IMG/VR virus record: IMGVR_UViG_3300013005_000207
Location: 1-20,871 of that record
Strand: one strand, 5' to 3'
Length of the DNA stretch: 20,871 bases
Source: a virus
Part shown: positions 6,228 through 19,900 of the stretch, one piece after another
How the letters are laid out: each line of letters starts with the position of its first letter
How positions within the stretch are numbered: the stretch's first letter is position 1
Notes under the pieces: generated by a model
What the model was told of the DNA's origin: nothing
Seen by the model: only the letters and a program-made list of their open reading frames with translations
Databases searched by the model: none
Made by a program: the position numbers and the translations under genes

Positions 6228-6255
6228 AAGAAAGGGGTTAATAGCCCCTTTTTTT
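6228..6255 (+). terminator. Rho-independent terminator
   Basis: AAAGGGG (6231-6237), a 7-nt loop TTAATAG and CCCCTTT form a 7-bp stem, with the 3' T-run extending to 6255. It closes the RadC-like cluster just before the tail operon promoter. Confidence 0.85.
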
Positions 6256-6273: not shown

Positions 6274-6281
6274 TACTTTTG
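6274..6281 (+). promoter_or_regulatory. Bacteroidota-type -7 element TACTTTTG before the tail operon
   Basis: TACTTTTG is an exact TAnnTTTG match placed 15 nt before ATG 6297 and just after the terminator, as expected for the start of a new transcription unit. No clear TTG occurs at the usual -33 spacing; the nearest (6260-6262) is too close. Confidence 0.55.
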
Positions 6282-6296
6282 TCGTTTTATAGATAT

Positions 6297-7040
6297 ATGA
6301 TTGAAACAATCAAGATAATAGTGCCAACAGAACTACGTGATGTTAAATTGCATCAGATGTTAACCTACAATGGGTTGAAGCCCGATATGGATAACACACA
6401 ACGTCAGTTAGAAGCCGTATCCATCTTTTGTGACCTCACCATGACTGAAGTTAAAAACATTCCGTTTGAAACACTGAAGTATTGCGTAGAGAAGATCACG
6501 GCAATGTTAGATACCAAACCTACATTTACACCAAGGTTCACGTTTGAAGGTATTGAGTATGGGTTCATACCAAACTTTGATGAATTGACCACGGGTGAGT
6601 TTATTGACATTGAAAACTATTGCAAAGATTCCAATGATCTGTGGAAGGTATTGAGTGTTTTGTATCGTCCGATCACCAAAAGTGGGCAGAACGGGAGGTA
6701 CGAGATAGTGGCGTATAATGCTGATCTTAACACGTCATTTAAGGACATTGATGCGAACACTGCATTTGGTGCGATGCTTTTTTTTTGGAGTTTAGGAATC
6801 GACTTATTGAGTTCTTTCCAGAAGTATTTGCGGAAGGTGAGGAAGGGGGAACTAACGATGAAATACGCCTTACCAAAAAGTGGGGATGGTTTGGAATGGT
6901 CTACCGACTTGCTAACCGAAATTTCCTCAACCTTGACTCAGTTTATACAAAGCCCATACAAACCGCTCTCATGTGGACCGCTTACGAAAGTGACATTGCG
7001 GCGATGGAACAAAAAGCAATTAGAAAAAAATGAACAATAA
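6297..7040 (+). CDS. Tail assembly chaperone, frame-0 product
   Basis: 247 aa from ATG 6297. An in-frame TTG at 6279 overlaps the promoter and is less likely. The N-terminal 160 residues hold a two-part fold: a basic/hydrophobic start with LRDVKLHQMLTYNG, DMDNTQRQLEAVSIFCDLTM and KNIPFETLKYCVEKI, then a domain with FEGIEYGFIPNFDELTTGEF, IDIENYCKDSNDLWKVLSVL and YRP. 'Y-x-F-x-P-x-F-x-x-L-T-x-G-E-x-I-D-L/I-E' is what I recall from Bacteroidota phage tail chaperones. Past the T9 run (6778-6786) frame 0 continues with WSLGIDLLSS and KSGDGLEWSTDLLTEISSTL to TAA 7038-7040. A -1 shift gives a second product (see 6785-7033). Chaperones of this kind coat the tape measure during tail tube assembly. Confidence 0.65.
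   Translation: MIETIKIIVPTELRDVKLHQMLTYNGLKPDMDNTQRQLEAVSIFCDLTMTEVKNIPFETLKYCVEKITAMLDTKPTFTPRFTFEGIEYGFIPNFDELTTGEFIDIENYCKDSNDLWKVLSVLYRPITKSGQNGRYEIVAYNADLNTSFKDIDANTAFGAMLFFWSLGIDLLSSFQKYLRKVRKGELTMKYALPKSGDGLEWSTDLLTEISSTLTQFIQSPYKPLSCGPLTKVTLRRWNKKQLEKNEQ
6778..6786 (+). other. Slippery T9 tract, likely programmed -1 frameshift site
   Basis: In frame 0 the run reads CTT TTT TTT TGG, containing the heptamer T TTT TTT at 6779-6785. Slippage by -1 continues as TTG GAG TTT into the frame open to 7033. RNA polymerase slippage on nine Ts would have the same effect. Confidence 0.7.
6785..7033 (+). CDS. Tail assembly chaperone, -1 frame extension (expressed as a fusion)
   Basis: 82 codons in the -1 frame, entered from the T9 tract and ending at TGA 7031-7033. 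The product LEFRNRLIEFFPEVFAEGEE is followed by KKWGWFGMVYRLANRNFLNL, then YTKPIQTALMWTAYESD and a basic end. The 'W-G-W-F/Y-x-x-x-Y-x-L-A-x-x' helix, the 'L-x-x-A-L-x-x-x-x-Y-x-x-x' segment and the charged tail are what I know from the downstream (T) part of Bacteroidota phage tail chaperones. No ribosome-binding signal or ATG lies at the entry, so it is expected as a fusion of about 245 aa (163 from frame 0 plus 82). The stop overlaps ATG 7030 of the next gene (ATGA), which links that gene to the shifted frame. G/GT-type pairs in lambda-like siphoviruses work similarly. Confidence 0.72.
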   Translation: MEFRNRLIEFFPEVFAEGEEGGTNDEIRLTKKWGWFGMVYRLANRNFLNLDSVYTKPIQTALMWTAYESDIAAMEQKAIRKK

Positions 7041-7521
7041 TCACATAGGCACGGCATTCGAGTTAATGAAGGATATAGCAGTCCAAGAAGGATGGAACTA
7101 TTCGCATGGTACATTAACTGAACTTGACTTCAAAGCGTTTCTCGTATTTCCGTTGATGCACTGCTCAATTCAATCAGTATCGTTAACAGATCAAGTTGCC
7201 ACAATCCAAATGAACATCATGGTAGCGGATCGTGTGAACTTTTTGAAAACAGAGAACGAACAAGAAAACTTGATCACGGAGTATACCGATTATGGGTACA
7301 CAGAAAATCAAAACTATGGTCACATTTTACAAGATCTGTACGTACGTTTTTCAAAAGGGTTATGGCGTACTGAACAAGAGTACTACAACCAAGTGCAATA
7401 TATAAGACCTATCAATTTCAATCCATTCATTGAAGCCATGGATAGCGTATTAGCAGGATATCAAATCCAAGTAGGTATTGAATTAATAAACCCATGGGTA
7501 ACTGATGGCGACTGCATTTAA
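7030..7521 (+). CDS. Probable tail completion/terminator-type structural protein
   Basis: 163 aa. No catalytic motif. The sequence has a short N-terminal helix (HIGTAFELMKDIAVQEGWNY), a strand-rich middle (FKAFLVFPLMHCSIQSVSLT, VATIQMNIMVADRVNF), a long helix (GHILQDLYVRFSKGLW) and an end with the pattern 'A-G-Y-x-I-x-V-x-I-x-L-x-x-P-x-V-x-x-x-x-C'. I recall this closing pattern from small structural proteins between the tail chaperone or capsid genes and baseplate genes in Bacteroidota phages; some align with tail terminators. The exact role is uncertain. It overlaps the chaperone stop (ATGA) and the next ORF by 17 nt. Confidence 0.5.
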   Translation: MNNNHIGTAFELMKDIAVQEGWNYSHGTLTELDFKAFLVFPLMHCSIQSVSLTDQVATIQMNIMVADRVNFLKTENEQENLITEYTDYGYTENQNYGHILQDLYVRFSKGLWRTEQEYYNQVQYIRPINFNPFIEAMDSVLAGYQIQVGIELINPWVTDGDCI

Positions 7522-8053: not shown

Positions 8054-9168
8054 TATTCAATCAACAACCCGAATCCATAGTGGGATGCAATTCCCCGATC
8101 ATGTATCAGTTCTACGATGGCTTGTATGCATCAGATAAGTTTTACTATCAGTGTGATGTGTATGTTTGGAGTGGAACTGCAACAATACCCGCAACTCCAA
8201 ATTGGACGATCAATCGTAAACCTGATCAGTATGGGAGTGGACGTGGTTGGATTGATATTCACAAGTTAGTACAACAAGAAGTAACCCGTGACTTTCTGAT
8301 TAACGGAACTTACAAACCAAACATCGGTAGCGGGGCAAAAAGATTTGCAGTTAAAGTACGTGGAGTTTACTATGTAGGATCGACCATTACGTACACAAGT
8401 TATGTAACTAGCAACGTATGTCTAGCATCAGCAGGGTATGCGTATACTGCAGAAGGATTTAACCAAGGGTATCCGACCAAGTATGTTTACACAGATAAGA
8501 GCAAAGTGACGTTAACGACTGCAACACCAAGTGCCTACCTTTGGTACGATGCATCAGTGATCACTTCTATCGTATGTGGATCAGCAACGATTACACCAAA
8601 TACGATCACGGGATCAGATCAATTGATACAAGGTATTGAGTTGAAGCAACTGATAACGGCAGGGGGAACTTGGGGTGCAGATATCAATATCACGTTTGTC
8701 AAGTCTGGCGATGACATTGTGATCCCCGTAGATTTTGTGTGTGAAAATAAGTATGGTCAACAAGATGTATTGTTCCTGAACAAATACGGGGTATATGACT
8801 CGTTTTTATTTAATGGAGTGTTTAAGTCCACGTATGAAGTGACCAAAGAAAGATATGAACAACCCATATTCAAACAAACCGATATGGCTCAAGCATGGAC
8901 ATACGGCGTAGGTATAACAACTCCATACCTCACAAATAGCGTAGAAACCATGTCAGTAAACACCGATTGGATTAGCGAAAATGATGTTGACGTTGTAGAA
9001 CAAATGTTTTATTCCACCAACATATTGATACTCGATGGAAGTCAAGTGCTATCAGCAAGAGTTATTGATACTGCGTTCGAAAGGAAAACAAGGGTAAACG
9101 AAAAGTTGATATTGTATACCATTCAGTTAGAGTACAACCAACCTAAAATTAACAAGATTGTACGATGA
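8050..9168 (+). CDS. Beta-rich tail/baseplate structural protein
   Basis: 372 aa, no signal peptide. The product is almost entirely beta-like: Tyr, Thr, Val and Ser rich, with few long helices. A distinctive region at about 235-265 (VDFVCENKYGQQDVLFLNKY, then GVYDSFLFNGVF) and the C-terminal NVDWI-like NTDWISENDVDVVEQMFYST, then NILILDG, followed by V-I-D-T-A-F-E-R-K-T-R-V-N-E-K-L-I-x-Y-T-I-Q-L-E-Y, match a family I recognise across Bacteroidota phages: 'N-K-Y-G-x-x-x-x-x-x-F' then 'I-x-E-x-x-x-x-x-x-x-x-L-x-x-S-x-N-V-Y-I'. These are usually annotated as tail or baseplate components. It overlaps the 928-aa gene by ATGA and probably forms a complex with it at the tail tip. Confidence 0.6.
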   Translation: MIFNQQPESIVGCNSPIMYQFYDGLYASDKFYYQCDVYVWSGTATIPATPNWTINRKPDQYGSGRGWIDIHKLVQQEVTRDFLINGTYKPNIGSGAKRFAVKVRGVYYVGSTITYTSYVTSNVCLASAGYAYTAEGFNQGYPTKYVYTDKSKVTLTTATPSAYLWYDASVITSIVCGSATITPNTITGSDQLIQGIELKQLITAGGTWGADINITFVKSGDDIVIPVDFVCENKYGQQDVLFLNKYGVYDSFLFNGVFKSTYEVTKERYEQPIFKQTDMAQAWTYGVGITTPYLTNSVETMSVNTDWISENDVDVVEQMFYSTNILILDGSQVLSARVIDTAFERKTRVNEKLILYTIQLEYNQPKINKIVR

Positions 9169-11951
9169 TCCGTTTTAGTTTATCAATCCAAGACAATAAC
9201 GAAGACACGATTACTCCCATTATGTCGGCGTACTACCAACGTACGATATCGGGATACATTGAAGGTCAAGAATGTTGTATTGAGAAGTTAGAATCCCTTG
9301 GAGGTACATTCAGCGAGTTGATACCCGTTGATCTTTTTAATGATGAATCAATACCACTCACACGTCAGTTAAAGGACTTGATGAACCTTTCCACAATTTG
9401 GACTGATTATACCAAAGATTTCCAAATCCCCGCATCAGAAACCAACAACCAAATCTTTGCTAATTGGTTTGATGAGAACTTAGTAATGGGTAGTTGGAAT
9501 CCCAATTTTGGTAAGAATGCTATCATTTATATTCATGGATTACCCGTTTTTGAAGGAAGAGTAGAATTGATAGGGTGTAAATTCAAGGATGGGTTACCTG
9601 AATTGTACAACATCATTTTTTACGGAACGACCAAAAAGATACTAGATCAGTGGGGCGAAACACTCATGAACGAAGTTGATTGGAGTGCTTATGATAACAC
9701 AATAAACGCCACGGCAGTTATCAATTCATGGAATCAAACACTTAAAGGTGGCGATATCTTGTGGCCTGTTGCCGATTACAACCAAGGATGGAGGTATTCC
9801 AAATCACTCGGTGTCAATGGTAACATCTACCAAACACGTGGTGTAGAAGTAGATGATCTACGTCCTGCAATTCGATTAAGAGCCATGCTAACAACTGCGT
9901 TTGCAGAAATTGGGTATACGTTAAGTGGATCATTTTTGACACGTCCTGAAATGGATGATCTGTATATATTGCCTATGCAAACTGCAGGTCCTTTGTATGA
10001 TCCCGAATATGTAGCAAGTGGCGTATGTGAAGCGTTTGTTGCACCGAAAACATTTTCGGGTAGTATTTTTGCCTCGTTAAGTTTTAAGTCATTAGTATTC
10101 AGTGCATTAGTGAACAACCCATCTGGTAACTACGATGTAGCAACGGGTAATTATACTGCTAATCGTACGGGTAATTATCAGTTCACTGTATTTTTAACAG
10201 ACCTCACTGCGTCAGGAGTGCCATTGCAACAATTACAATTTGCATTTTTTGTAAATGGTCGTAAAATTTATGCACCCGCAACGGGGACATTTACAAGTGG
10301 GTTCGGGTTGCCAGGCGCAACGATTGTCTTCAATTACTTTTTAAAAACTATGGATGTAGTTTCTATCAAGTATAGTGCAACGGGAACATGGTCAACATCA
10401 TCAATCACATTTAAATGTACGAAAGCCCCACAAGGTATTAATAACAACTTAGTAGACATGGGTGATGCGATGCCACAAAAACCGATTAAGGACTTTGTAA
10501 ATGGCGTATTGCAGGGATTTAACTGCATATTGTTACCCGTAAGTGAAACTGAGATTGAGATCCACAACTTGCAAGATTGGTTAAAAACGGGTACAACACG
10601 GAATTGGACACAATTCGTAGATATCACAGATATCCAACACGATAAGATACCAATCCCACGTCACGTATCGTTTACTCACCAAGAATCCACATGTTTAGCC
10701 AATGCGTACTACAAACAAATTAACAGACGTGAATACGGGAGTACCAAGTTTATGCCCGTTATTGATTACCCAACAGATGAGTTTAATGTAGAAACCCCAT
10801 TCCATGTTATTGCACCACAAGCCATGAATGAGGTAAACGCCAACGGGCAATTTGTACGCAAAACAGAGTTGAATGTTCCCATATTTATGGATCAAGATTC
10901 TAAGCCCGTGCAACAAGATTACACTTTGTTCTATTATGGGGGTAAACAATCAGTATCAGATACATGGTTTTTTGCGGGAGTAACCCAATATGTGATGCCG
11001 TTAATGACTCCATACTCTGCATATCCAACTCTATCGTCTAGTTATTCCAATGCCTTTGGATTAGAACTTTCACTACGTGGAGATGCCCCCGTAAACACGA
11101 TGTATGAAATGTATTGGAGTGAATACCTATCTCGTATGTATTCAACGCAATCTAGAGTAGTTAAAATGACTGCAATTCTACCCGTAGGTGAGTGGTTAAA
11201 CCTGAAATTGAACGATACCATTGCGATTTCATCAAATTACTACAAAGTTCAATCGATCCAATACGATATGTTGACCGAAAAGGCAAACCTAGAACTCGTT
11301 ACGTATCCTGATGTTGACATTCTAAAATTCACAACCACTGGTCAGAAGCCCGATTTTACCAACCCAACAGAAACCCCATTTGGTTTGACCTATTTGAAAG
11401 ATTATTCCGTAGCCAAGGGTATCATGAACTCGTATAAGTTTAATAATCAAGATTACCTAGACACAAACCAAGATACAGATTACAACAAAAACAACGTATT
11501 TAGTTTAGTGCAACAAGTAGACACTATTCAATCCATTTTGCAGTTCAACCAAATAACTATGTACAGAAACACGCCCACATCAAGAACCACAGATTCAACG
11601 ATATGGGACCCGATTCCAATGGAAACTACAGAAACGATTGGGTATGTGGATAACATCACATCTGATATGCCCCTTTCCAAGTATGTGTGTACCGATGGTG
11701 GGCAATACAAGTTCACGGCGATGTGTGCATTTGGGCAAAGTGGAAACAAACAAATTGAGTTTGAGATCCAAGTCAACGGAGTTGAAACAACTGGTTATGG
11801 ATTGACTGATTCAAACCACCATAGTGTGAACATGGAAACCATTTTAGATTTAGCCCCCACGGATGAAGTGACATTTGTTTGGAAACTGCAAACGGGTGGA
11901 TCACATACGATTGTAATTCAGAAAGCCAACTTTTTAATACTCAAAAAATGA
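9165..11951 (+). CDS. Large baseplate/receptor-binding type tail protein with two jelly-roll-like segments
   Basis: 928 aa, the largest product here. Residues 1-250 carry a hub-like start: SIPLTRQLKDLMNLSTIWTD then YTKDFQIPASETNN, an 'N-F-x-x-P-x-S-x-x-N' insertion motif common in Bacteroidota phage baseplate proteins. Residues about 308-421 (GNYDVATGNYTANRTGNYQF, VNGRKIYAPATG, VVSIKYSATGTW) and the last 130 residues (VDNITSDMPLSKYVCTDGGQ, YKFTAMCAFG, IEFEIQVNGVE) each show the 'G-x-Y-x-F-x-x' / 'V-N-G' strand pattern of C1q/TNF-like jelly rolls used for host glycan binding. Between them lies a beta-rich connector. Role at the tail tip or receptor binding is inferred. The end overlaps the 51-aa gene by ATGA. 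Confidence 0.6.
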   Translation: MIRFSLSIQDNNEDTITPIMSAYYQRTISGYIEGQECCIEKLESLGGTFSELIPVDLFNDESIPLTRQLKDLMNLSTIWTDYTKDFQIPASETNNQIFANWFDENLVMGSWNPNFGKNAIIYIHGLPVFEGRVELIGCKFKDGLPELYNIIFYGTTKKILDQWGETLMNEVDWSAYDNTINATAVINSWNQTLKGGDILWPVADYNQGWRYSKSLGVNGNIYQTRGVEVDDLRPAIRLRAMLTTAFAEIGYTLSGSFLTRPEMDDLYILPMQTAGPLYDPEYVASGVCEAFVAPKTFSGSIFASLSFKSLVFSALVNNPSGNYDVATGNYTANRTGNYQFTVFLTDLTASGVPLQQLQFAFFVNGRKIYAPATGTFTSGFGLPGATIVFNYFLKTMDVVSIKYSATGTWSTSSITFKCTKAPQGINNNLVDMGDAMPQKPIKDFVNGVLQGFNCILLPVSETEIEIHNLQDWLKTGTTRNWTQFVDITDIQHDKIPIPRHVSFTHQESTCLANAYYKQINRREYGSTKFMPVIDYPTDEFNVETPFHVIAPQAMNEVNANGQFVRKTELNVPIFMDQDSKPVQQDYTLFYYGGKQSVSDTWFFAGVTQYVMPLMTPYSAYPTLSSSYSNAFGLELSLRGDAPVNTMYEMYWSEYLSRMYSTQSRVVKMTAILPVGEWLNLKLNDTIAISSNYYKVQSIQYDMLTEKANLELVTYPDVDILKFTTTGQKPDFTNPTETPFGLTYLKDYSVAKGIMNSYKFNNQDYLDTNQDTDYNKNNVFSLVQQVDTIQSILQFNQITMYRNTPTSRTTDSTIWDPIPMETTETIGYVDNITSDMPLSKYVCTDGGQYKFTAMCAFGQSGNKQIEFEIQVNGVETTGYGLTDSNHHSVNMETILDLAPTDEVTFVWKLQTGGSHTIVIQKANFLILKK

Positions 11952-12103
11952 TCACAAAAATAATTGAACTATTGCAGTCACAACCTTGGTACGGGGTATC
12001 AGAGAATGTAGAAATTGCCAAAGGCAAGAACCAATACAACCAAAATTTGAAACAAGTTAAACGCACTTACATTAGAATAATTAAGTCATGGCAGAAGAAG
12101 TAG
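11948..12103 (+). CDS. Small basic hypothetical protein (51 aa)
   Basis: ATG 11948 overlaps the previous stop (ATGA); stop TAG 12101-12103 overlaps the next gene by 16 nt. The product starts MITKIIELLQSQPWYGVSEN and is rich in Lys, Gln and Asn, ending in YIRIIKSWQKK; it looks helical. Tight coupling on both sides supports expression. No family is recognised. Between baseplate and tape-measure genes it may be a small tail-assembly accessory. Confidence 0.6.
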   Translation: MITKIIELLQSQPWYGVSENVEIAKGKNQYNQNLKQVKRTYIRIIKSWQKK

Positions 12104-13986
12104 AAGTAAACGTAAAAACTGACACTAAAGACGTCAGTAAATTAGGTATCCTCTTAGACAAACTTGGCGAAAAAGTCAAGGGAGTTATGAGTGGATTCGG
12201 TAAAGCACTTGACAATGTAGGTAACAAGTTCCGTGAATTGCCAGGTCCTATCGGTCAAATGTCGGGTAGCGTAATGGATTTGGGTAAATCAATGTTGACG
12301 TTAGTAGCAAACCCAATAGGTGCGTTCCTTGCATTGCTTGTAGGAACGTTTACGGCGTTGCGTAGTGCGTTAACTAAAACGGAGAAGGGTATGGATGCCC
12401 TCGCCAAATTGACTGCGATATTTGGGGCTATATTGCATCCGATCATTGAAGCAGTTTCGGGATTTGCGACATTGCTTGTAGACGGGTTAGCAAACGGATT
12501 AGAGTTAGTTGGGAGTTTGTTTGGCTCAGCCGCATCAGAAGGGCGTAAACTAGCAGAGTTGCAAGACGAACTTGAAGATCGGGAGTTAGCATTGAATGAA
12601 GCCCGTGCAAAAGGAAACAAGGAGTTAGCCCAAGCACGTGAATTGTTATCAGATTCCAACGCATCTCTAGCAGATCGTAAGAAGGCATTAGACCAAGTAC
12701 GTAAAAGTGAAACTGATCTCGCCGCCAAAGAACTGAAATTTGCCCAAGATCGCTTAGCAGCCGCTAGATTAGACCAAAAGTTGAATGGAGAAACCGAGTC
12801 ATCTAAGAAGGCGATCAGTGATGCAGTTGTTGCTACTCAAAATGCAGAAACCGAATTAGCAGCCAAAAGACGTTTGTTCAACAGAGAAGCCAAGAAACTT
12901 GACAAAGAAGATGAAGAGCGTAAGAAGGAAGCCATCAAAGCAGAGCAAGAACGTCAAAAAGAGTTAGCATCCAAACAGAAAGAGTATGCACAAGAAAGGC
13001 GTGACGCTTCAGACAAAATCCGTGAGGCGGATCGTAAAAACATCATTGATTCCATTAAGGATGAAGAAACCAAGGCAAGGAAACAAGCAGAGTTTGATCT
13101 TGACAACGCCAAGCGAGAAATTGCACGAGGTAAATACACCAAAGCGGAAAAAGATCGGTTGATCCAAGAAGCCGAAGAAGCAAACCAAATCAGATTGACA
13201 CAAATTTCCGAGGATGCTGAGAAAAAGAAACTTGATGATAAGAAAAAAGCAGACGAAGAACTCAAAGCGTTTATGCAAAAGTCAGCAGATGACGAAGCCA
13301 AGTTTATTGATGAGCAGTATGCCAAAGAACAATTGCGGTTGACACAAACTTTGACCAATGAAAAGGATTTGCAAGATGCGTTGACTAAATTAGAATTAGA
13401 ACGTCTACAAAACCAAATACAAGCACGTAAGGATGCAGGTATTGCTACCACAGATCTTGAAACTCAATTAGCAAACAAGCGTATAGATATCGCCAAGAAT
13501 GAAGAAGCCCAAAAGAAAGAATTAGCACAAAAAGAGTTTGATGCTAAGATGGCAATATTTGATGCGACCTCCAATGCGTTATCAGCGTTAGGTAGTGCCA
13601 TTGGTGAAGAAACGGCAGAAGCAAAAACACTAGCCATTGCAGGTGCTATCATTGATACTTATGCGGGTGCAACTAAAGCATTGAAAGCAGGTGCGGGTAC
13701 ACCATTAGGGTACATCAATGCGGCGGCTATTATCGCAACGGGATTAGCCAATGTTCGCAAAATGACGTCAGTACCCGTGCCAGGATCTAATGATACCGCA
13801 ACACCAACGATGAGCGGACCAAGTGTGTCTATTGTCGGAGGATCAGCAGATCCGTCAGCACAGATTGCAAGGTCACTAGCACAACAAAACCAAAAACCAA
13901 TCAAAGCATACGCAGTTGCCACTGATATGAGTACACAACAAGCATTGGATCGTAGGATTCAGCAAAACGCAACATTCCCGGGATAA
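12088..13986 (+). CDS. Probable tail tape measure protein
   Basis: 632 aa, mainly helical. Residues about 55-150 hold hydrophobic stretches (LGKSMLTLVANPIGAFLALL, VGTFTALRSAL, LTAIFGAILHPIIEA). Residues about 150-490 are a long, charged, Ala/Glu/Lys/Arg-rich coiled coil (ELQDELEDRELALNEARA, KEDEERKKEAIKAEQERQKE). A second apolar block follows at about 495-570 (LSALGSAIGEETAEAKTLAI, AGAIIDTYAGATKAL, PLGYINAAAIIATGLANV), and a polar tail with SGPSVSIVGG ends it. This hydrophobic/coiled-coil/hydrophobic order is that of tape measure proteins, which fix tail length and leave through the tube. At about 1.5 angstroms per residue, it would predict a tail near 95 nm, on the short side for siphoviruses. 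Its place after the baseplate genes is unusual; a baseplate-associated coiled-coil protein is the alternative. Confidence 0.6.
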   Translation: MAEEVEVNVKTDTKDVSKLGILLDKLGEKVKGVMSGFGKALDNVGNKFRELPGPIGQMSGSVMDLGKSMLTLVANPIGAFLALLVGTFTALRSALTKTEKGMDALAKLTAIFGAILHPIIEAVSGFATLLVDGLANGLELVGSLFGSAASEGRKLAELQDELEDRELALNEARAKGNKELAQARELLSDSNASLADRKKALDQVRKSETDLAAKELKFAQDRLAAARLDQKLNGETESSKKAISDAVVATQNAETELAAKRRLFNREAKKLDKEDEERKKEAIKAEQERQKELASKQKEYAQERRDASDKIREADRKNIIDSIKDEETKARKQAEFDLDNAKREIARGKYTKAEKDRLIQEAEEANQIRLTQISEDAEKKKLDDKKKADEELKAFMQKSADDEAKFIDEQYAKEQLRLTQTLTNEKDLQDALTKLELERLQNQIQARKDAGIATTDLETQLANKRIDIAKNEEAQKKELAQKEFDAKMAIFDATSNALSALGSAIGEETAEAKTLAIAGAIIDTYAGATKALKAGAGTPLGYINAAAIIATGLANVRKMTSVPVPGSNDTATPTMSGPSVSIVGGSADPSAQIARSLAQQNQKPIKAYAVATDMSTQQALDRRIQQNATFPG

Positions 13987-17336: not shown

Positions 17337-17684
17337 ATGCACATCAATAATACTTCCACCTCAATTACGTTCACATCGTTTGTGGATTTTGAAGGCATAT
17401 CAACCGCAACCATTGAAGTGTGGCATAAACCCACTAAAACGATGGTTTCTACGAATACTGCATGTGTGAAGACATATTCATTCATCACTATGAATTTACC
17501 CGCTCTAACGTCAATTAACGCAGTTGCCAAAAATACAGATGAATTATTGTTTCGTGTTTACAATGGTAATGTGTTACTTTGGGAGGTATTGGGGTATTGG
17601 ATAGTCGGTACTACAAACATTTACAACACTTGGAAGCAGTTTACTACAACAGCCCCTGGTACACCTAATTGGAAGACACTATGA
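17337..17684 (+). CDS. Small beta-rich hypothetical protein before the portal
   Basis: 115 aa from ATG 17337; a TTG two codons earlier is possible. The product is rich in Thr, Ser, Asn and aromatic residues and looks all-beta (HINNTSTSITFTSFVDFEGI, then STATIEVWHKPTKTMV, YSFITMNLPALTSIN, LLFRVYNGNVLLWEVLGYWI). No Cys pairs or catalytic motif are seen. Bacteroidota phages often have a small beta-sandwich protein next to the capsid or tail tube; this may be a head decoration or minor tail subunit, but I do not recognise it firmly. The stop overlaps the portal start (ATGA). It is the first gene after the terminator at 17273-17303, so it depends on read-through or a promoter in the 33-nt gap, where no good TAnnTTTG is seen. 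Confidence 0.6.
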   Translation: MHINNTSTSITFTSFVDFEGISTATIEVWHKPTKTMVSTNTACVKTYSFITMNLPALTSINAVAKNTDELLFRVYNGNVLLWEVLGYWIVGTTNIYNTWKQFTTTAPGTPNWKTL

Positions 17685-19900
17685 GTTTAGAATTTATACA
17701 ATTACAATCATACACCGCCCCCTCGATCATTGAGCAAAAGAACAAGGATTGGGTGCAATATGGTGATGATAATAATTACTACCAATATTTGATTGACTTA
17801 TACCATTCATCACCCACCAACAATGCGTGTATCAAAGGCACGGTTGACCAAATTTTTGGTAAAGGGTTGGAGGTTACAAGGGCATCAAGGGATTTGCCAG
17901 GTTACATTGAATTCAAAAAGTTGTTCAGTGCGGATGACCTTCGTGCCGTTGCAATGGATTTGAAGATGTTGGGACAAGCATCGTTTCAGTTGATCAAATC
18001 TAAGGATCGTAAGAAATACGTTCAAGCCAAGCACTTTCCACAACAAACCCTCCGTCCTGCTAAGTGCAACGAAAAGGGTGAAATTGAGAAATACTATTAT
18101 TGTCCTGATTGGGCGAACATGAAGCGTAATCACACGCCAATTGAATTTAGGGCGTTCGGTTATGACCAAAGTGCAAACGAATGTATCCTTACAATCAAAC
18201 CATATTCAACGGGTTCGTTTTACTTCGCACCCGTGGACTACCAAGGAGGTACGCAATATGCCAACTTGGAATCGGAGATATCGAATTTCCACATAAACAA
18301 TATCATGAATGGGTTAGCCCCTTCGATGTTGATCAATTTCAACAATGGACAACCCGCTGCCGAAGTAAAAGATACTGTAGAAGCACAGATCAAACAGAAG
18401 TTTGGTGGATCTTCTAATGCAGGTCGTTTTATTATCAGTTGGAATGATGGCAAAGACACAAGTGCCGATATAACACCCGTACAATTGAGTGATGCTCACA
18501 ACCAATATCAATTTTTATCGCAAGAATCCATGCAGAAGATCATGGTGGCTCACCGCATTGTATCTCCTTTGTTGTTGGGTATTAAAGATAACACGGGATT
18601 TGGTAGCAACGCAGACGAATTGAAGTCAGCATCTATCTTGTTTGATAACGTAGTGATCCGTCCTTTCCAACGATTGATTATTGATGCAGTCACCAAGGTA
18701 TTGAATTTTAATGGGTACAATTTGAATCTGTACTTTAAGACCTTACAACCTTTGGAGTTTACTGATTTGAGTGGCAATGTCATCGATGATGAAACACGTG
18801 AGGAAGAAACGGGCGTATCGTTAGCATCTCAAAAAAAAAAGATTGAACTAGTTGAACCCAATGCAGGGGAATCCCAAAGTGATTTCATGCAACGTTGTGT
18901 TCCAATAGTGATCCGTGAGGGTAAAGAAACTGATCAAGCCGTTGCTATTTGCTACTCTTATTTTGAAGGTAAGACCGAATTAGCCGAGTCGTATACTGAT
19001 TACCCTGAAGGTGCTAGGAGTAATGCTAAGAAAGCATTAGCATGGGCTGAAAAAAACGGATGGGGTGATTGTGGCACTGCCGTAGGTAAAACACGTGCAA
19101 ACCAATTAGCCAAGGGAGAACCGATTAGTAGAGATACCATTGCAAGGATGGCATCATTTCGTAGACACCAACAAAACAAAGATGTACCCTATTCTGAAGG
19201 ATGTGGGGGGTTGATGTGGGATGCTTGGGGTGGTGATGCGGGTATCCGTTGGGCAGAAAGTAAACTCAAAGAGATTGATTTATCCAAAGACATGACCATC
19301 GCAGATGAGAAGTCATGGATAGAACATTTGAAAGACAAGGGGGAATTAATTAACACTGATGAGTGGGAACTTGTTGATGTTCAAGAAGTTACAGATGCCG
19401 ATGAAGAAATGAAATTTAACTTGGCTTATGATAATCCCAATCAAAAAAGTAATGACGATAAAGGGGTGTACAAAATCCGATACCGCTATGGTCCTGATTT
19501 CGTATCCAACAATTCACGGGAGTTTTGCTCTACAATGGTTCAAGAAGCCAAAAACGGAGTGATCTTCAGACGTGAGGATATTATTGAAATGGGAGATGCG
19601 GGAGTAAACGGGCAGTTTGCACCTAGTGGTAAAAGTACCTACTCAATATGGAAATACAAAGGTGGAGTAAATTGCCACCACAGATGGGAACGATTGACCT
19701 TTAAACGTAAGCAAGTTAAGGGTAAGTTCCTCCCAAAACAACCCAACGAAACGGGTACTGAACGTGACATAGATAACTATAAAGAAGTATCGAATAAAAG
19801 TGCAGATCAAGCGGGAGTGCCATTCTCACCAAGTGGTTGGAATACCGCCAAGACACGCCCCATTGATATGCCAAACAAAGGATCATTAAAGAATAAATAA
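17681..19900 (+). CDS. Portal protein with a long C-terminal extension of head-morphogenesis modules
   Basis: 739 aa from ATG 17681. Residues 1 to about 385 are a portal: WVQYGDDNNYYQYLIDLYHS, SPTNNACIKGTVDQIFGKGL, then MVAHRIVSPLLLGIKDNTGF, GSNADELKSAS and the wing/stem end LYFKTLQPLEF. It forms the ring through which TerL pumps DNA. Three added segments follow: about 396-428 (QSDFMQRCVPIVIREGKETD, QAVAICYSYFEG), about 440-530 (YPEGARSNAKKALAWAEKNG, ANQLAKGEPISRDTIARMAS, EGCGGLMWDAWGG) and about 597-674 (YKIRYRYGPDFVSNNSREFC, YSIWKYKGGVNCHHRWE). I recall all three from phage head proteins, often fused to XkdF-type proteases. The core/extension border lies at an A10 run (18831-18840) with an A AAA AAG slippery heptamer. 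Confidence 0.85.
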   Translation: MSLEFIQLQSYTAPSIIEQKNKDWVQYGDDNNYYQYLIDLYHSSPTNNACIKGTVDQIFGKGLEVTRASRDLPGYIEFKKLFSADDLRAVAMDLKMLGQASFQLIKSKDRKKYVQAKHFPQQTLRPAKCNEKGEIEKYYYCPDWANMKRNHTPIEFRAFGYDQSANECILTIKPYSTGSFYFAPVDYQGGTQYANLESEISNFHINNIMNGLAPSMLINFNNGQPAAEVKDTVEAQIKQKFGGSSNAGRFIISWNDGKDTSADITPVQLSDAHNQYQFLSQESMQKIMVAHRIVSPLLLGIKDNTGFGSNADELKSASILFDNVVIRPFQRLIIDAVTKVLNFNGYNLNLYFKTLQPLEFTDLSGNVIDDETREEETGVSLASQKKKIELVEPNAGESQSDFMQRCVPIVIREGKETDQAVAICYSYFEGKTELAESYTDYPEGARSNAKKALAWAEKNGWGDCGTAVGKTRANQLAKGEPISRDTIARMASFRRHQQNKDVPYSEGCGGLMWDAWGGDAGIRWAESKLKEIDLSKDMTIADEKSWIEHLKDKGELINTDEWELVDVQEVTDADEEMKFNLAYDNPNQKSNDDKGVYKIRYRYGPDFVSNNSREFCSTMVQEAKNGVIFRREDIIEMGDAGVNGQFAPSGKSTYSIWKYKGGVNCHHRWERLTFKRKQVKGKFLPKQPNETGTERDIDNYKEVSNKSADQAGVPFSPSGWNTAKTRPIDMPNKGSLKNK
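18831..18846 (+). other. A10 run with A AAA AAG slippery heptamer and immediate -1 stop in the portal gene
   Basis: In frame the codons are CAA AAA AAA AAG. The heptamer A AAA AAG (18835-18841) is the classic dnaX slippery sequence. A -1 shift reads GAT TGA next, stopping at 18846 and giving a portal core of about 388 residues. No strong downstream hairpin is evident. Confidence 0.45.

Follow-up and report, generated by a model that had tools for sequence, protein, structure and literature searches.

The window (the whole stretch of DNA analysed, a virus contig of 20,871 bases) contains one gene that very probably gives rise to two proteins, which would share an N-terminal domain and carry alternative ends through slippage at a run of nine Ts (T9). 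Comparison with homologous sequences strongly supports dual coding over the entire 82-84 codons past the run.

Gene structure and the T9 tract

Under standard decoding the product would be 247 aa long and end in an 84-aa tail of its own. If slippage occurred at T9, through RNA polymerase adding one U or the ribosome slipping back one base on U_UUU_UUU, the product would instead be a 245-aa fusion carrying the conserved -1 domain of the family. The N-terminal domain of ~163 aa would be common to both products. The features of the gene and its surroundings are as follows.

6297..7040, + strand: frame-0 product (G-like), 247 aa, made of the ~163-aa shared N-terminal domain and the 84-aa tail
6778..6786, + strand: putative T9 slippage tract, with the -1 heptamer T_TTT_TTT at 6779-6785; T9-T11 in 217/217 sequences
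6785..7033, + strand: -1 frame C-terminal (T-like) domain, ~82 aa, which would be reached by a shift from the N-terminal domain; KWGW motif family-wide
6787..7033, + strand: dual-coding overlap with selection in frame 0 and frame -1, as judged from sequence comparison
7030..7521, + strand: next gene, 163 aa, whose ATG at 7030-7032 overlaps the -1 stop (ATGA)
12088..13986, + strand: tape-measure-like gene of the same tail module (PHROG tape measure, E=1.4e-7), in the same order as in Nonlabens phage P12024L

A preliminary description of this DNA had placed a T9 tract with an in-frame -1 heptamer at 6778-6786, and these coordinates check exactly; the context of the tract in frame 0 is CTT TTT TTT TGG. 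As had also been described, both frames are open past the tract. Frame 0 runs from the ATG at 6297 to a TAA at 7038-7040 (247 aa), and the -1 frame, of which TTG at 6785-6787 is the first codon after the shift, runs to a TGA at 7031-7033 (245 aa as a fusion). The reported overlap of this stop with the ATG of the next gene is likewise correct, and frame-0 translation ends 8 nt beyond that ATG. Just ahead of the ATG at 6297 lie a hairpin resembling a terminator (6231-6251) and a promoter-like TAnnTTTG motif (6274-6281), neither of them above chance. The TAnnTTTG motif was not enriched in the window, and a sigma-70-type promoter scan gave sites no more frequent than in shuffles.

Conservation among relatives and tail-length groups

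Viral contigs yielded 38 loci in an initial scan. T9 was present in all 34 loci in which the tract was read, and all 28 loci spanning both stops had the same end points in both frames. Alignment-based scans found several hundred further loci, of which 80 were retained per scan. The analysis comprised 217 sequences, with at least one contig sampled twice. The tract was T9 in 165 of them, T10 in 46 and T11 in 6, without interruption down to ~30% identity, and a KWGW-type domain was found in the -1 frame throughout. Within the window's clade the tract was exactly T9 in 70/70 sequences. An assembly error, expected to appear as a T8 or T10 tract, had been named as an alternative, and these counts speak against it. 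Since the locus scans admitted T runs as short as 5-6, the conservation of the run is not an artefact of locus selection. One locus outside the 217, L118:2501-3249 (on the same contig as L202), has a T10, so that the -1 domain directly continues the reading frame of the N-terminus; read with T9 it has an alternative tail of ~72 codons, and it is either a real variant or an assembly error.

The isolated-phage relatives found are the Nonlabens phages P12024L and P12024S, whose annotation splits the gene into two hypothetical proteins. Further query searches found no other isolated-phage relatives, and none of 63 candidate stretches from bacterial genomes, where prophage relatives were sought, was a relative.

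By length, the frame-0 tails fall into three groups: short (~16-36 codons), middle (52-65) and long (79-90). A tree of 63 sequences recovers both the long-tail (99/88) and the mid-tail (100/96) group as monophyletic, with the short tails, P12024L included, as the remainder. P12024L has a very long branch, which makes the root of this tree uncertain. Since the three groups lie over the same -1 domain, that domain is family-wide, and with the long frame-0 tail confined to the window's clade, extension of the frame-0 tail is the simpler reading. The long tail was probably overprinted by such an extension in the window's clade, as far as the sequences indicate. The two ends had been described as nearly equal in size, which holds for their lengths (84 and 82 residues) but not for their ages, the long frame-0 end being restricted to the clade.

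Selection on both frames of the overlap

In the N-terminal part of the gene, the first, second and third frame-0 codon positions of 16 close relatives diverge by 0.12/0.06/0.54. Divergence is 0 in the tract codons and 0.04-0.12 at each codon position of the overlap tail, and third-position divergence is back to 0.43-0.49 in the next gene. The -1 synonymous difference over the whole clade is 0.459 upstream vs 0.197 in the tail. Between the window and relative L018, -1 synonymous change was seen at 6/68 sites in the tail vs 71/132 upstream (Fisher 7e-11); in the very close pairs L191/L192 and L186/L187 the suppression was not significant. Within the overlap, frames 0 and -1 have almost the same coding potential, with -1 slightly ahead, and the third frame scores low.

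If only the -1 frame were functional past the tract, frame 0 would be open through chance or codon bias. The -1 domain is indeed the one conserved family-wide, and the frame-0 tail is short in the other groups. However, with the -1 protein fixed and synonymous codons drawn at random, frame 0 stays open with a probability of 0.0004 in the window, and the values for 15 relatives are 0.0006-0.037. Frame-0 identity was also compared with a null in which the -1 protein was fixed and the pair's own upstream synonymous rate was used. The window and L018 share 71/81 frame-0 residues against 39.1±4.2 under the null, with 51 as the best of 2000 draws, and for the window and L033 the identity is 52/81 against 33.3±3.9. 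Across 14 clade representatives there are 113 sites at which a synonym makes a frame-0 stop; none of these synonyms is used, whereas the usage seen in the N-terminal part predicts 43. With frame 0 open, such synonyms are necessarily absent; what matters is that their absence extends along the entire overlap.

The short-tail group serves as an internal control. Its synonymous change is 0.19-0.33 at -1 codons 3-29 and 0.44-0.58 at codons 30-65, which lie past most frame-0 stops. The middle-tail group is less sharp, with 0.241 in the dual part and 0.289 after it. Without suppression beyond the frame-0 stops of the short-tail group, and with -1 synonymous change suppressed and frame-0 identity far over the null in the window's clade, a functional role for the -1 frame alone is already contradicted, and we regard it as extremely improbable.

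Low divergence at all codon positions might also arise if it were the nucleic acid of the overlap that is conserved, through RNA structure, a regulatory role of the DNA or recent exchange, rather than two proteins. Against this, no RNA fold signal was found in the eight stretches folded, lengths and stops are kept in both frames, and the suppression tracks the extent of frame 0 across the groups and stops where frame 0 stops; we give this explanation very little weight. The pattern characteristic of dual coding, namely suppression limited to the overlap together with conservation of both frames, was found. Alignment of homologues with analysis of synonymous constraint past 6786 had been proposed as a check, and its outcome, with both frames conserved, gives strong support to the original suggestion of slippage with true dual coding (synonymous suppression and frame-0 identity above the null).

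Possible mechanisms of the proposed slippage

We infer that slippage would take place at the tract, and we lean slightly towards the polymerase as the main source of the fusion. Programmed transcriptional slippage is marked by mRNAs with extra U and by an unbroken A/T run of at least 9 under selection; such a run is present here. In bacteria, most transcription errors at A/T runs insert a single base, and they become more frequent as the run lengthens (PMC5574713); such insertions at the T run would lead into exactly the -1 frame. Of 13 sequences checked, 12 have a +1 frame that closes within 2 codons.

In 146 sequences, neither frame would change its protein if the final T of the last in-frame TTT became C, which would leave T_TTT_TTC. 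A C was never found at this position in these sequences (P 2e-4 to 1.5e-9 vs Phe codon usage, for 28-65 lineages). Since tRNA-Phe on U_UUU_UUU may likewise favour U over C, the silent-site result fits both mechanisms.

Ribosomal -1 frameshifting on U_UUU_UUU could make the fusion without any polymerase slippage, and we rate its chance as somewhat below even. Such frameshifting is known for phage tail chaperone genes (PMC5009743), and the heptamer is in phase. On the other hand, the 9-11 Ts are never broken, even at the silent position, and folding of eight stretches from seven loci gave no downstream stimulatory RNA structure (z -0.54 to 1.5).

A second tract, A10 at 18831-18840, was observed in the portal ORF (17669-19900), where the portal domain meets a mosaic, variable C-terminal cassette. 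It is conserved as A9-A10 followed by G in 78/80 relatives, with A_AAA_AAG in frame, and the -1 frame meets a stop one codon later in 77/78. The tract is possibly a site of dnaX-style truncating frameshifting, by which a truncated portal would be made alongside the portal-plus-cassette protein.

Predicted function and tail-module context

The AlphaFold2 model of the frame-0 product has a mean pLDDT of 84.6, with tail helices at 198-218 and 231-246, and the -1 domain is also modelled as helical (pLDDT 77). The N-terminal domain is confident and both tails are helical. Sequence searches of Pfam, NCBIfam and the PDB gave no credible match, and Foldseek gave no significant match to the PDB for either model. 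Inspection of fold matches with VIA-align gave only common helical arrangements at residues 151-222, which were discarded. In BFVD a fold match to a named chaperone was not significant (E 0.44), and the related viral models are all unnamed. The PHROG families matched, phrog_32199 and phrog_38404, are unnamed too, and a weak PHROG 'tail protein' match was obtained for 13/49 members (best E 0.0016). The family phrog_166 was considered as that of lambda gpG/gpT and rejected, as gpG and gpT belong to other PHROG families.

The slippage gene is followed by a tail-completion-like gene (phrog_29822), phrog_35281, phrog_38559 and the tape measure gene, an order common to P12024L. In the lambda type the chaperone gene stands between the tail tube and tape measure genes; here the gene lies several genes before the tape measure gene rather than adjoining it, and no tail tube gene was recognised. 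A 928-aa protein of the tail module (window 9165-11951) contains a C1q-domain match (E 1.8e-5).

The preliminary description called the gene a tail chaperone. Its architecture and its position in the tail module fit this assignment, whereas the Pfam, NCBIfam and PDB searches lend it no homology; a tail assembly chaperone is therefore a plausible identity, drawn from architecture and position. By analogy, the pair may act like lambda gpG/gpGT, in which case the common part would bind the tape measure and the -1 domain would recruit the tail tube. A role other than tail assembly, for example in head-tail joining, would agree with the missing homology to chaperones and with the location of the gene directly after terminase in P12024L and L038. 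We consider it rather unlikely, as the architecture matches G/GT and the module holds tail-completion-like and tape-measure-like genes.

Comparison with known systems

Lambda gpG/gpGT (Levin 1993; Xu 2004, via PMC5009743) combines an upstream domain with a -1 fusion produced by slippage near the end of the upstream gene, the arrangement proposed here, and this and other G-T pairs are likewise located in the tail module and similar in total size; sequence similarity between lambda-type pairs and the window gene was not found. Two features of the lambda type are present here: a -1 slippery site that would fuse an upstream ORF to a downstream domain, and conservation of the shift site and both products in divergent relatives (217 sequences, three groups). 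A short frame-0 end, usual in the lambda type though not strictly defining, is not; the end here has 84 codons. Lambda-type chaperones are further characterised by binding to the tape measure and tail tube, absence from the virion and a fixed G:GT ratio. Annotated SEA-PHAGES genes have on average 26 nt between the slip site and the in-frame stop, and for the Xu set the mean is 36 nt (PMC10885494); the corresponding distance in the window gene is ~250 nt, all of it dual coding. For lambda itself, the record places the end of G 18 nt beyond the annotated start of the T ORF. A report of full-length dual coding in tail chaperone frameshift genes was not found in the open-access papers searched.

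Bacterial slippage genes (Thermus dnaX, Shigella spa13/mxiE; PMC5009743) have A/T runs of at least 9 at which a one-base gain leads to an alternative product, as here. The window gene differs from them in its two long alternative ends, both selected, and slippage in it is putative. In potyvirus P3N-PIPO (PMC4761962), polymerase slippage gives access to a region coding in two frames; there the polymerase is that of an RNA virus, and motif and function are unrelated to those of the window gene. P12024L and P12024S (P12024L_40, _41) have the homologous gene, the T9, the -1 KWGW domain and the gene order, all as in the window, but their frame-0 tail is just ~24 codons, and no frameshift is annotated between the two hypothetical proteins.

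Implications

Tail-chaperone frameshift genes are the standard example of recoding in phages, and their unshifted end, usually a few residues in length, is regarded as a short remnant. In the window gene this end is selected over its whole length and should therefore have some role. The short, middle and long frame-0 tails over one -1 domain form a graded natural series of overprinting, and the invariant T9-T11 makes polymerase vs ribosome slippage directly testable. The phage family is known from hundreds of contigs, and in its isolated members the gene is annotated only as hypothetical proteins. Our tentative proposal, a possibility to which we give about a one-in-three chance, is that polymerase slippage on the T run would produce tail-assembly isoforms with helical C-terminal domains of similar size, both functional, and that the unshifted chaperone of this clade would have gained its second domain by overprinting the whole T-like domain.
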